Of a stretch of DNA of 64,000 bases, positions 13,087 through 33,584 are shown one piece after another. Position numbers and translations under genes: made by a program. Numbering within the stretch: the stretch's first letter is position 1; each line of letters starts with the position of its first letter. The notes beneath the pieces were generated by a model, which saw only the letters and a program-made list of their open reading frames with translations, had not been told where the DNA came from and searched no databases. The DNA comes from Prochlorococcus sp. AG-409-J16 (GTDB lineage Bacteria > Cyanobacteriota > Cyanobacteriia > PCC-6307 > Cyanobiaceae). The DNA lies in the NCBI GenBank assembly GCA_003215655.1, contig QCKB01000001.1:186001-250000 (forward strand), written 5' to 3'.

Positions 13087-13680
13087 ATGAGCTTCCGTTT
13101 TCTCCCTGACGATCCAATATCAGCCGTGAGGATGCCAACAGGGCAATCAGTACTAATTGATCCTTCTGCAAGATCAGGTGATGCATGCCTTGAAGTACTT
13201 GAAGGAGTTGCACGGGTCTATTGCCCATGCGAAGAGACCGAAGGTATGACTCTTGCCTTCCTTCAAGCAGGTGATCAACTCCGAACTGATCGACTATGCA
13301 GCGAAGGTGTATGCGTAGAAGCCCTCACACCTCTTTGCTTTAGAAGTGATGCGGAAGTAAATGAAGGCGAAGGTTTTGATGCAGTAAATGAGTGGACGCT
13401 TCAATTACTACGCATAAGACATCTAGGAAGTGCAGAACAAAGGCTTCAAGCCCTATTTGCTCTTTTAGTTAACCGGCTAGGAAGAAGGTGCGGCGATTGG
13501 TGCGATCTTCCATTCCGACTAACACACGAAAGGATTGGAGAACTCATTGGTTCAACTCGAGTAACTTCCACCCGCTTAATCTCAAGGCTTAGGACCGCTG
13601 AATTATTAAACGTTCCTAGTGGTGAACCAATCCTTCGACTTGCGCCAACTCTCATCGAGTCAGCACCAATAGCCGCCTAA
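13087..13680 (+). CDS. Crp/Fnr-family transcription regulator
   Basis: A 197-residue protein with a divergent N-terminal effector domain (GQSVLIDPSARSGDACLEVL) and a C-terminal winged helix. The HTH is LTHERIGELIGSTRVTSTRL at residues about 142-161. The effector domain lacks the cAMP-binding RGExG motif of true CRP, so it may bind another ligand or none. The neighbours are pcb, two ferritins, isiB and a FutC-type gene, so control of iron-linked genes is a reasonable inference. It probably forms an operon with the 90-residue gene 15 bases downstream. A paralogous regulator is at 15986-16750. Confidence 0.88.
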   Translation: MSFRFLPDDPISAVRMPTGQSVLIDPSARSGDACLEVLEGVARVYCPCEETEGMTLAFLQAGDQLRTDRLCSEGVCVEALTPLCFRSDAEVNEGEGFDAVNEWTLQLLRIRHLGSAEQRLQALFALLVNRLGRRCGDWCDLPFRLTHERIGELIGSTRVTSTRLISRLRTAELLNVPSGEPILRLAPTLIESAPIAA

Positions 13681-13695
13681 GGGAAGGGATCCACT

Positions 13696-13968
13696 ATGCA
13701 AACATACACAATTACTAGATCTGAAAGTGTAATCGGCAGCCTATGCCGAGAAGTTGAATCAATTAGATGTAGAGGAAGAAGTATCTCTAATTCAATATTG
13801 AATAGCAAAGATGGAATATTGATATCAAGATTAAATTCTGAATTTAAACTATTACAAAAAAGACGTTTTGAGTTAATCAATTCAGTAAATAAATTAAGAC
13901 ACTCTGAATTATCTGATAACTTGTCATTAGATTTTCTAAATGAAATACTTAAAAGAGGTTTAATATAA
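13696..13968 (+). CDS. Small helical protein, cotranscribed with Crp-type regulator
   Basis: A 90-residue protein starting 15 bases after the regulator, with a purine-rich AAGGGAAGGGA stretch before the ATG. Residues about 40-72 form a helix that could be a coiled coil (SEFKLLQKRRFELINSVNKL). One cysteine pair (SLC, RCRG) is near the N-terminus. I do not recognise the family. The tight spacing suggests translation with the regulator and perhaps a shared role. Confidence 0.6.
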   Translation: MQTYTITRSESVIGSLCREVESIRCRGRSISNSILNSKDGILISRLNSEFKLLQKRRFELINSVNKLRHSELSDNLSLDFLNEILKRGLI

Positions 13969-13998
13969 TTAAATATAATATCTCTTTAGTCTTACAAA

Positions 13999-14577
13999 TT
14001 AAGCAAGCTTAGCAGGGCTATGCTTACCTTCGCTTAATTCTCCATCTATAATAAGCATCGCCGAAGGTTGATCATTAGCGAACTTAACTCTCCCCATTAA
14101 ATGAGCGAAGTCATTCTCAGAGTTAATTTGACTATCAATAGTTGGATCTAAAAAGACTGTGGTTCTCATATCAGAAGATCTCTCTGCAATTGCATACAGT
14201 TGATTTAAAGATGTAGTCACATCAGCCTCCATTTGGAAAGAGGCCTCTAGGATCTCCTGAGGAGAAGACCAATTTTGCCTTGGTGCTGGTAATTCCTGCA
14301 GTAGCACAGTCTGGCCGCGAGCTATTAGATAGTCGGCAAATTTGCAAGCATGCTCTTGTTCGCTTTTTGCTTCATTCTTAAAAAATTCAGCAAACCCCCT
14401 TAACTCCCTTTCCGCGAACCAAATTGCAATTGCAAAATAAGCTGCACTTGCGTTTCTCTCCATAGTTAGGTGTTGCTGAAAAGCTTCTACCAAAGCATCT
14501 TCCATATGCTCTGCTATTGCCCTTCCAGCAGGGCCTTTTGATACTGACAAAGAAGATTTACCTGTTAATGAAGTCAT
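13999..14577 (-). CDS. Ferritin, marine Synechococcus SynFtn type
   Basis: A 192-residue ferritin of a subtype distinct from the one at 10695. It shares the RxxxVFLDPxxxxQxxSExxFAxLxGRVKFA block and the APRQNW segment with the structurally studied Synechococcus ferritin. Ferroxidase residues are present: Glu and Tyr in MERNASAAYFAIAIW, E-x-E-H in SEQEHACKF, Glu in QMEADVTT. The ATG at 14577 is preferred over an upstream in-frame Met at 14586. A 43-residue Cys-rich frame and a repeat-rich spacer lie divergently upstream. Two ferritins close together may differ in iron handling, for example storage versus fast buffering. Confidence 0.93.
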   Translation of the reverse strand: MTSLTGKSSLSVSKGPAGRAIAEHMEDALVEAFQQHLTMERNASAAYFAIAIWFAERELRGFAEFFKNEAKSEQEHACKFADYLIARGQTVLLQELPAPRQNWSSPQEILEASFQMEADVTTSLNQLYAIAERSSDMRTTVFLDPTIDSQINSENDFAHLMGRVKFANDQPSAMLIIDGELSEGKHSPAKLA

Positions 14578-14637
14578 GATGATCACTAGATCAATTTTTC
14601 AGTAGCAAAACACACAAGCAAAATAAAGCTCACTTGA

Positions 14638-29876: not shown

Positions 29877-30926
29877 GTGATTGAAGCATCAAGTGGTCAC
29901 CTTCGAGTGGAATCGCTAAACGCGAATCACTTTCGCTTATTAGAAGGCAGCCAGCAAGCCAAATTACTCCCATGGCTTCAAACGATGCTCCTTCGCAATT
30001 GGATAGCAAAAGCGGAAAAGCATTTACCGGGACTACTTCCTGCTCGACAGCCAAAATGTCTTGTAGCAATAGAGAAAAATAAACTTGTAGCTTTCATAAT
30101 TGCAAAACCATACAATCGTAGGGGTACATGTTGGTCTATAGGCTTACCGGAGCTAATAACATCATCCACAAATTCCACTTCACGCTATATAAAACAAAAT
30201 CTTATAGAGAGTGCTTTAGATAAAAAAAATAATCAATTGCAAAGTTGGGTTTTCCGTTGCCCAGCTATTGATTCTGAACAAATTGGTATTGCAAGAGAAT
30301 TAGGATTCCAACCTCTAAAAGCACTCCAAAGCTGGACCCCCCCTTTACAGTCTTTTAAAGAGCATCAAAGAACAATTGAAATATTCTTGCCAACCGAACT
30401 TGAATGGTTAAAAATCACACGAAACACAGCCCGTTTACTTTTTCCTCTAGAACAAGCAGGGTGCTCAGGTCATCTACGTCAAATTGTAGATAGAGAATGG
30501 ATTGATCTTCTTGAAAATAACAATTCAGGTAGTGGAGTTCTCCTTAACAAGGCTGGAAATAAATCAACAGCGATAGCAGGACTAGTTTCTAGGACTGATT
30601 CCACAAGAAGCACTGTTCTCGAACTAATTCGTGGAATAGCTTGGGACCATCGTTTACCAAATGCCCTAGAAACAATTCTCGATAAAATCATATGTATATC
30701 TGATAGCCCCAAAATCGATACCGCTAGTGAAGACGATCAACTCAACCAATTGCTAGAAGGGCTTGGTTGGCGTCGTAGTTCAGAAGAAATCCTTCTTGGA
30801 AGAAGTCTCTGGAGAAGAAGTTCAAAAAAAGCTTTAATAAAAGGAACAAGACGACTTCAGTCAATGCTTGGAGGCCTACAGCCTCAGCAGCCACCTTTAC
30901 CTAGTCCATCACTAGGGAAAAGATGA
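29877..30926 (+). CDS. Acetyltransferase-like hypothetical protein
   Basis: A 349-residue protein starting with GTG at 29877. The N-terminal half resembles cyanobacterial GNAT-like proteins (KCLVAIEKNKLVAFIIAKPY, then IGIARELGFQPLKALQSW). A typical acetyl-CoA loop is not clear. The C-terminus is basic and proline-rich. The stop overlaps the ruvX start (ATGA), so the two are translated together. Function unknown. Confidence 0.65.
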   Translation: MIEASSGHLRVESLNANHFRLLEGSQQAKLLPWLQTMLLRNWIAKAEKHLPGLLPARQPKCLVAIEKNKLVAFIIAKPYNRRGTCWSIGLPELITSSTNSTSRYIKQNLIESALDKKNNQLQSWVFRCPAIDSEQIGIARELGFQPLKALQSWTPPLQSFKEHQRTIEIFLPTELEWLKITRNTARLLFPLEQAGCSGHLRQIVDREWIDLLENNNSGSGVLLNKAGNKSTAIAGLVSRTDSTRSTVLELIRGIAWDHRLPNALETILDKIICISDSPKIDTASEDDQLNQLLEGLGWRRSSEEILLGRSLWRRSSKKALIKGTRRLQSMLGGLQPQQPPLPSPSLGKR

Positions 30927-31414
30927 TAACCAAGAAAAGCCCAAAACCTTGCTCAATTTTGAGTATTGATATTGGAAGGAAACGTATCGGAGTAGCAGGT
31001 TGTGACCCTCTTGGAATAACCGTGACCCCTCTTCCAGCTGTTAAGAGAAAAAGCTTTAAAGAAGATATAGAGATCTTTAAATCTCACTGCATTTTTCGCA
31101 AAGTTGAAGGCCTAGTAATAGGTCTTCCTTTAGATGCAAATGGATTGCAGACCCAACAAGGAAGATTTAGTCATCGATATGGACAAAACCTTGCTCTGGC
31201 ATTAGGACTGCCAATAGCTTGGGTCAACGAACATTCCTCAACTTGGGCAGCGGAAATTCGGTACAAACTTCATGGTGACAGGAGTGGAAAACTTGACAGT
31301 GCTGCTGCTGCATTGCTACTAGAACAATGGTTACGAGAAGGGCCTGAACTTAGGCCAGTTAACATAGCTTCCTCAATAATAAATAGTGGAATTCATCCAA
31401 AAAATGGATGCTGA
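30923..31414 (+). CDS. ruvX: RuvX/YqgF family RNase H-fold protein (Holliday-junction resolvase-like)
   Basis: A 163-residue RNase H-like protein. The N-terminal SIDIGRKRIGVAGCD holds the first conserved Asp, VIGLPLDANG the middle strand, and NEHSSTW plus KLDSAAAALLLEQWL the C-terminal acidic residues. The family is linked to 16S rRNA 5' maturation and was proposed as a Holliday-junction resolvase. The start overlaps the preceding gene by 4 bases. Confidence 0.9.
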   Translation: MITKKSPKPCSILSIDIGRKRIGVAGCDPLGITVTPLPAVKRKSFKEDIEIFKSHCIFRKVEGLVIGLPLDANGLQTQQGRFSHRYGQNLALALGLPIAWVNEHSSTWAAEIRYKLHGDRSGKLDSAAAALLLEQWLREGPELRPVNIASSIINSGIHPKNGC

Positions 31415-31435: not shown

Positions 31436-31978
31436 ATGTCTGAATCAGGTCTGAACAACAATGGAGACGTACCAAGCATCCTAGTTAAGGACAGTAATGG
31501 AAGCAGTCTCGTATGTTTTCTTGAGCAACTTATTCCTATTAATGGAATTGACTATGCTCTCCTAACCCCTGTAGACACTCCAGTCTCTCTATTCCGTTTA
31601 GTAGAAGGCAAAGATCCAGAACTAATTGAAAAAGTCACATCTAATGAGCCTATCCTTTCTGTAGCAGACGTAGTGCTACAAGAACATGATCTTACGCTTA
31701 TACGTTCTGCCGTAACCCTTACAGTAACTGGCGAGTTAGACGAGCCAGAACCTGAGGATTTAGAAGAGGATGACCTCGATGACGACTCTGAGACCTATGA
31801 GTTACTTGTTGGGTTCAGAGTAGAAGATCAAGAATATGGGCTTTACATACCTCTTGATCCTTTTTTCGTAGTCGCACGAATAGAAAATGGTGAAGCTAAT
31901 CTTGTAGAAGGCGAGGAATTCGACAAGGTTCAACCTCTTATTGAAAATGAACTGGAGGGTCAAGACTTATCGGACTAA
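31436..31978 (+). CDS. DUF3727 (with DUF1292-like N-terminus) protein
   Basis: A 180-residue acidic protein. The N-terminal region (VKDSNGSSLVCFLEQLIPIN, YALLTPVDTPVSLFRL) is DUF1292-like, and the C-terminal region (EDQEYGLYIPLDPFFVVARI) matches DUF3727. An acidic linker (EPEDLEEDDLDDDSE) lies between. The family is found in cyanobacteria and plastids; the role is unknown. Its TAA overlaps the proposed start of yqeG. Confidence 0.85.
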   Translation: MSESGLNNNGDVPSILVKDSNGSSLVCFLEQLIPINGIDYALLTPVDTPVSLFRLVEGKDPELIEKVTSNEPILSVADVVLQEHDLTLIRSAVTLTVTGELDEPEPEDLEEDDLDDDSETYELLVGFRVEDQEYGLYIPLDPFFVVARIENGEANLVEGEEFDKVQPLIENELEGQDLSD

Positions 31979-32487
31979 TTAGCCTCAACTGGCTTAAACC
32001 AGACTGGGAACCAGGCCTAATAGTTTCCCAGATCCCAATACAACATTTTCTTGACATCGGTCTAAAAGCATTAGTCATTGATGTGGATGGGACACTCCTA
32101 AAAGGCAAAGAAACCCTCTTAGAAAAACCAATTAGAGAATGGTTGAATGAAGCAAAAAGTGATCTTCTTCTTCACCTTTTGAGTAACAACCCATCAAAAA
32201 AACGTATATCTGCAGTAGCAAGTCAATTGGAACTACCTTACACATATAGTGCAGCCAAGCCTAGGAAAGCAGCACTCCAAAGGGTATTGAATGAACTAAA
32301 TCAAGACCCTAATAAGGTTGGGATGATAGGAGATAGAATTTTTACGGATGTATTAGTAGGAAATCGACTTGGGTTATATACAGTTTTAGTTAAGCCAATG
32401 ATCAATGAAGATAAACTATTAAACTCTTTGTATATTCAAAATTTAGAAAAAAGAATAACAAGACTCTTCAAATATAAAGAACCATGA
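31978..32487 (+). CDS. YqeG-family HAD phosphatase with no canonical start codon
   Basis: A HAD IIIA-type phosphatase of about 169 residues. The catalytic motif I is DVDGTLL (Asp35 and Asp37), and the C-terminal GDRIFTDVLVGNRLGL holds the metal-binding Asp pair. The frame is open back to a TGA at 31948 but contains no ATG, GTG or TTG before the motif; the first GTG (32083) lies inside DVDGT and would delete the nucleophile. ATT at 31978-31980, overlapping the TAA of the upstream gene, is the most likely start; ATC at 31969, 9 bases after GGAGGG, is the alternative. YqeG relatives include a plastid/mitochondrial phosphatidylglycerophosphate phosphatase. Confidence 0.8.
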   Translation: MSLNWLKPDWEPGLIVSQIPIQHFLDIGLKALVIDVDGTLLKGKETLLEKPIREWLNEAKSDLLLHLLSNNPSKKRISAVASQLELPYTYSAAKPRKAALQRVLNELNQDPNKVGMIGDRIFTDVLVGNRLGLYTVLVKPMINEDKLLNSLYIQNLEKRITRLFKYKEP

Positions 32488-33584
32488 GCCTTAAGGTACT
32501 AAAAATTGGCACTAGCCTTCTTAAAGGCAATGAACGAACCTCTACTGCAGAAGTTATCGGCACCTTTAGCCAATGTATTTCTGAAGGTATCGACAAGGGA
32601 GACAGATTTGTTCTTGTTACCAGTGGAGCAGTAGGACTCGGATGCCAATGCATAGGCATTAAAAAGCCTCCAGTTGATGTGGTTTCTCTTCAAGCAGTTG
32701 CAGCAATTGGTCAAGGCCAACTAATGGCGCTTTACGACCAATCAATGAGAAAATTTCATCGAAGAGTTGCACAGGTACTACTAACACGTTCAGACTTCGG
32801 CTCAAGGAGTAGGTACAACAATGCATCTAATACCCTCAAGAAACTTCTCGACTGGGGAGTCCTGCCTGTAGTTAATGAGAATGACGCGCTATCTCCTGAA
32901 GAGTTGAGATATGGAGACAATGACACTCTTTCTGCATTAGTTGCTTCAGCATTAGAAGCGGATCAATTAATCCTATTAACTGATATAGATCATCTCTATT
33001 CTTCTGACCCCCGAATGGACAAAGAAGCAAAGCCAATTAGAGATATTCACAATGCTAAAGAGTTAAATTCACTTATATCAATATCAGGAGCCGGACAAGG
33101 AGGTATGTGGGGCACAGGTGGAATGTCAACAAAACTAGATGCCGCAAGAATTGCTACTACTAGTGGTATCGAAGTTCATCTAGCAGATGGCAGAGACCCT
33201 AAAACTTTGAAAGATTTACTAAATGGATGCAGGGGAGGAACAGTCTTTCATGCCAATCCAAAACCCATTGGCAATCGAAAAAGCTGGTTAGCTCATGCAC
33301 TCAGGCCAGTAGGTGCTATACAGCTTGATCAAGGAGCCTGTAATGCTTTAAATCATCGTGGAGCTTCATTACTACTGGTAGGGGTAAAAAAGGTTGTAGG
33401 TCAGTTTGAAGCAAACGAACCTGTCAAAATCCTTACCCCAGAGGGAGAAGAACTCGCAAGAGGGTTGAGCTCCTTTAGTAGTCAAGGGCTTAAAACAGCA
33501 TTGGAGTCAATTACCTCTTCAGGGGCCTCTCCAATAGTTATCCATAGAGATGTTCTAGTCCTTACAAAAGGTCAGTTCAGTTGA
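32484..33584 (+). CDS. proB: Glutamate 5-kinase
   Basis: A 366-residue enzyme that phosphorylates glutamate in the first step of proline synthesis. The N-terminal kinase domain is intact: KIGTSLLKG, VTSGAVGLG, NENDAL, and the GTGGMSTKLDAARIAT block. A C-terminal PUA domain follows from about residue 275. It overlaps yqeG by 4 bases (ATGA), so it is translationally coupled. Confidence 0.97.
   Translation: MSLKVLKIGTSLLKGNERTSTAEVIGTFSQCISEGIDKGDRFVLVTSGAVGLGCQCIGIKKPPVDVVSLQAVAAIGQGQLMALYDQSMRKFHRRVAQVLLTRSDFGSRSRYNNASNTLKKLLDWGVLPVVNENDALSPEELRYGDNDTLSALVASALEADQLILLTDIDHLYSSDPRMDKEAKPIRDIHNAKELNSLISISGAGQGGMWGTGGMSTKLDAARIATTSGIEVHLADGRDPKTLKDLLNGCRGGTVFHANPKPIGNRKSWLAHALRPVGAIQLDQGACNALNHRGASLLLVGVKKVVGQFEANEPVKILTPEGEELARGLSSFSSQGLKTALESITSSGASPIVIHRDVLVLTKGQFS

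Follow-up and report, generated by a model that had tools for sequence, protein, structure and literature searches.

How is translation of yqeG initiated in Prochlorococcus sp. AG-409-J16, where the gene has no canonical start codon ahead of its catalytic motif? In the window (the whole 64,000-nt stretch of DNA that was analysed), the yqeG frame is open on the forward strand from 31951, past a TGA at 31948-31950, to a stop at 32485-32487, and its 178 codons include all HAD motifs. The initial annotation proposed a real AUU or AUC start for this gene, on the grounds that no canonical start precedes DVDGT in the frame from 31951, that the only GTG would cost the nucleophilic Asp, that an ATT at 31978 overlaps the upstream TAA and that an ATC at 31969 lies 9 bases after GGAGGG. 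Rereading the frame bore out all four observations: there is no ATG, GTG or TTG from the upstream stop to the GTG at 32083, which encodes the V of D-V-D-G-T and was rejected as a start because the nucleophile Asp would be removed; the DUF3727 stop TAA (31976-31978) shares its final A with ATT 31978-31980; and GGAGGG is at 31954-31959. The features of the locus are as follows.

30923-31414, forward strand: ruvX, the upstream neighbour (TIGR00250, 77.9 bits)
31436-31978, forward strand: DUF3727 gene (PF12527, 98.7 bits), its 3' end overlapping yqeG in another frame
31954-31958, forward strand: GGAGG Shine-Dalgarno (SD) sequence, 10 bases ahead of ATC and 19 ahead of ATT
31969-31971, forward strand: ATC, the favoured candidate start, at -7 when numbered from the T that opens the DUF3727 stop
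31969-32487, forward strand: yqeG, HAD IIIA phosphatase, as proposed from AUC (172 codons plus stop; TIGR01668, PF09419 and motifs)
31978-31980, forward strand: ATT, the alternative candidate start, which lines up with relatives' ATG and shares a base with the DUF3727 stop (TAATT)
32083-32085, forward strand: GTG, the earliest in-frame codon of canonical type, V of DVDGT and unusable as a start
32484-33584, forward strand: proB (TIGR01027, 370.7 bits), overlapping the yqeG stop as ATGA

The genes thus follow one another on one strand in the order ruvX, DUF3727, yqeG, proB. Among the 69 main frames of the 64,000-nt window (non-overlapping, at least 90 codons), requiring a canonical start shortens just two by more than 20%, yqeG and an unrelated frame of 102 codons, and yqeG is the sole gene of a recognisable family without a usable canonical start. 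Immediately downstream of a ferritin-domain gene (13999-14598), the 102-codon frame (13680-13985, reverse strand) shows no Pfam match and offers its earliest canonical start 35 codons in; the frame may not code for protein, or may itself be another case of an odd start.

The identity of the gene is clear from its translation, which scores 117.5 bits against TIGR01668 (curated cut-off 89.1) and 38 bits against Pfam PF09419 (PGP_phosphatase), making phosphatidylglycerophosphate its putative substrate. The HAD catalytic motifs DVDGT, SNNPSKK, AAKPRK and GDRIFTD are all kept, and NWLKPDWEPGL, past the candidate starts, closely resembles the sequence of relatives. Among the Cyanobiaceae, a yqeG gene turned up in 362 of 400 genomes; of the 251 with good quality, 247 have it.

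We read the DUF3727-yqeG junction in about 125 loci, numbering positions from the first base of the DUF3727 stop; the window is the single genome of its genus and species in this set. Relatives mostly begin yqeG with ATG at +2 (TAATG or TGATG), which is the first start in 32 canonical genomes, and the others with ATG, GTG or TTG at -1, +5, +8 or -10. Three groups, 31 genomes in all, lack a canonical start upstream of the conserved N-terminal region: the window, genome G086 and all 29 readable genomes of genus g83. Both the window and G086 have ATC at -7 and ATT at +2, the ATT occupying the position of many relatives' ATG, as expected for a change from ancestral TAATG to TAATT; at locus L116 the junction reads TAATT. 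In g83 the near-cognate codons are ATC at -7 (29 genomes), ATA at -1 (27) and ATT at -10 (27). An in-frame GTG at +35 in one g83 genome (L151) and TTG at +71 to +95 in a few others were not counted as starts, because the conserved N-terminal part would be deleted. Prochlorococcus single-cell genomes AG-402 and AG-363 carry the same junction sequences as found among the loci read. In two g83 loci with identical junctions (L141 and L044, one species), the DUF3727 stop is shifted 12 bases upstream and overlaps the ATT as TAATT, with the TTATCAGAATAA stretch behind the relocated stop unaltered. In genus g5 and its kin (L023, L118-L120, L189, L190, L197 and L198), yqeG starts from an ATG at -10, within the DUF3727 end, and most have GGAGG at -22..-18, an upstream SD and start serving a canonical codon.

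Purifying selection is acting on g83 yqeG as far as the DUF3727 junction. Median dN/dS is 0.21 for the gene and 0.25 for the stretch ahead of DVDGT, and falls to 0.02 over codons +2 to +11, where changes are nearly all synonymous and hence indicate that translation in g83 begins upstream of +2, leaving ATA -1, ATC -7 and ATT -10 as the candidate starts. The Ile codon at +5, also considered, was discarded: the coding signal reaches +2, and the codon itself alternates between ATA, ATT and ATC, with two species having TCA or TTA instead.

Comparison of relatives partly separates the two candidates in the window and favours ATC. The ATC at -7 is the sole near-cognate codon common to all 31 non-canonical genomes, and is open in every one of them, as against just 6 of 95 canonical genomes, a contrast to be read knowing that the genomes are not independent of one another and that this position was singled out after inspecting the data. 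Its rivals in g83 vary, ATA -1 being CTA in L142 and L145, and ATT -10 being GTT in L148 and CTT in L150. Spacing of the SD points the same way. Strong anti-SD pairing at -17..-8, seen in 51 of 62 relatives with a start at -1 or +2, is lost in the window (-0.5 kcal/mol) and G086 (-1.2 kcal/mol), and strong pairing is found instead at -24..-15 (-9.8 and -8.6 kcal/mol, respectively), 8 to 10 bases from ATC and 17 to 19 from ATT, so that ATC (GGAGG, 10 bases) but not ATT has an SD at proper spacing. Most g83 genomes carry both SD sites, and the codon at the upstream GAGG is GAG in 29 of 29. Clade g5, with the ATG -10 and upstream GGAGG of most of its members, provides a canonical precedent for the ATC geometry. 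Besides the retrospective choice of this codon, two observations count against AUC. First, ATC overlaps Leu-Ser codons of DUF3727 and its conservation may therefore have another cause; the Leu codon at ATC is invariant in g83, as is 1 of the 14 other conserved Leu columns compared (2 of 15 in all). Second, drift alone would not lead one to expect ATT precisely where ATG used to be in two lineages, the window and G086. Predicted folding around ATC and around ATT is about -12 kcal/mol for each and does not tell them apart.

Taken together, these data suggest that a rare AUC (or AUU) codon is the probable start of YqeG in this organism, in keeping with the initial annotation, whose proposal of such a start is supported by the TAATT of G086 and by the 29 of 29 g83 genomes without a canonical start. 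To the more specific reading, that yqeG is a working gene translated from the near-cognate AUC at 31969 positioned by the GGAGG 10 bases upstream, we assign roughly an even chance. In this scheme, GGAGG 31954-31958 would hold a 30S subunit, either freshly recruited or remaining after translation of DUF3727, and fMet-tRNA would initiate on AUC 31969 with insertion of fMet, possibly helped by ribosomes ending DUF3727. By analogy with other near-cognate starts (PMC5472188, PMC2268962), the yield of YqeG would be modest or low and sensitive to IF3.

The best surviving alternative, possible but appreciably less probable, is termination-coupled reinitiation, whereby ribosomes ending DUF3727 at UAA would step back one base and restart on AUU 31978, a mutated ancestral AUG, with g83 using AUA -1 likewise. 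The ATT is positionally homologous to ATG +2, is found in two lineages (the window and G086), and the one-base overlap of stop and start is a classic coupling layout (reviewed in PMC12548453). However, neither the window nor G086 has an SD within about 17 bases of ATT, and IF3 overproduction lowers reinitiation, more strongly without an SD (PMC2268962). Moreover, codon +2 in g83 is AAC, AAT, ACT, GAT or AAA rather than ATT, so that coupling there needs a different codon, and ATA -1 is CTA in two species. We prefer AUC over AUU reinitiation, although both could contribute.

Ribosomal frameshifting into the -1 frame late in DUF3727 would yield a DUF3727-YqeG fusion that needs no start codon, and would fit the overlap of yqeG with DUF3727 in that frame. 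We consider it improbable: at the corresponding position canonical relatives use ordinary start codons, and no conserved slippery heptamer was found where the two genes overlap in the window, G086 and the 27 g83 genomes scanned, X XXY YYZ being absent from all but one of these (26 of 27 in g83), an isolated hit in L148.

A sequencing error hiding a true ATG seems just as improbable. One base separates TAATT from the TAATG of relatives and the window genome is alone in its species and genus in the comparison set, but TAATT recurs in G086, g83 genomes assembled as single contigs (n = 6: G085, G115, G139, G159, G190 and G202) also lack a canonical start, and the SD of the window differs too, which one wrong base does not explain. 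Aligning the 5' ends of related genes, the check suggested by the initial annotation, thus argues against a private error, since the loss recurs in G086 and in 29 of 29 g83 genomes. A hidden indel masking an ATG was ruled out, as the junction aligns without gaps to those of L002, L005, L013, L021 and others. Least probable of all is decay of yqeG, complete or in progress, in the lineage of the window. Gene decay commonly begins with loss of the start codon, but the 178 codons are open with all HAD motifs intact, purifying selection acts on the g83 copies that lack a canonical start, and yqeG is retained across the good-quality family genomes. Frameshift fusion, error and pseudogene are hence all unlikely.

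In a tree of YqeG, DUF3727 and ProB, the three non-canonical groups are separate, with g83 as one clade adjoining the ATG-bearing L024 and L047. The best trees, a second one included, require three start-loss changes, of which at least two are already demanded by strongly supported branches. We set aside one shared origin for the three lineages, although the AU test did not reject their arrangement as one clade (p 0.09). The start was probably lost two or three times, three being the best estimate from these phylogenies. We regard as doubtful a wider interpretation, in which the picocyanobacterial DUF3727-yqeG junction has repeatedly swapped AUG for AUC plus a relocated SD, in one genus for as long as its sampled history reaches, because selection favoured a phosphatase made in small amounts and responsive to IF3.

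AUC and AUU starts are themselves known, but natural ones outside infC are few and yqeG would add one; what stands out is the recurrence of the start loss and its genus-wide conservation. Loss of the canonical start in probably three lineages, conserved across a genus in one of them, makes a natural series that could probe what permits AUC use, be it SD strength, spacing or coupling. Gene finders do not expect near-cognate starts, and in such genomes yqeG may be annotated too short or missed altogether. Among titles and abstracts on Prochlorococcus and non-canonical start codons, a partial coverage of the literature, none describes such a yqeG start.

In E. coli, infC starts with AUU, and infC uses its near-cognate start for IF3 autoregulation. 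For infC, starts at AUU and at AUC are well documented, the ATC of Streptomyces among them (PMC5472188). In annotated genomes AUG-to-AUU switches are very rare: in one survey, just one of 61,358 ancestral AUG starts was reconstructed as having changed to AUU (PMC5622118), a count of the kind that annotation bias lowers. Like infC, yqeG is a conserved gene with a putative near-cognate isoleucine start, but it encodes a phosphatase, whereas infC autoregulates IF3 through its start. We looked for infC as a parallel AUU case in the window genome and found ATG, as in six relatives (seven Cyanobiaceae genomes, L208-L214), so that the classic AUU autoregulation of infC seems absent here. Like Streptomyces sigR, whose GTC start was missed by annotation, is repressed by IF3 and was shown experimentally (PMC5472188), yqeG is a gene other than infC with a rare start, but it differs in codon and function and its start is predicted from comparative sequence data. 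Finally, as in termination-reinitiation systems (ATGA/TAATG), the DUF3727/yqeG and yqeG/proB overlaps have the usual coupled layout, but in contrast to those systems the restart codon at yqeG is neither AUG nor GUG nor UUG.
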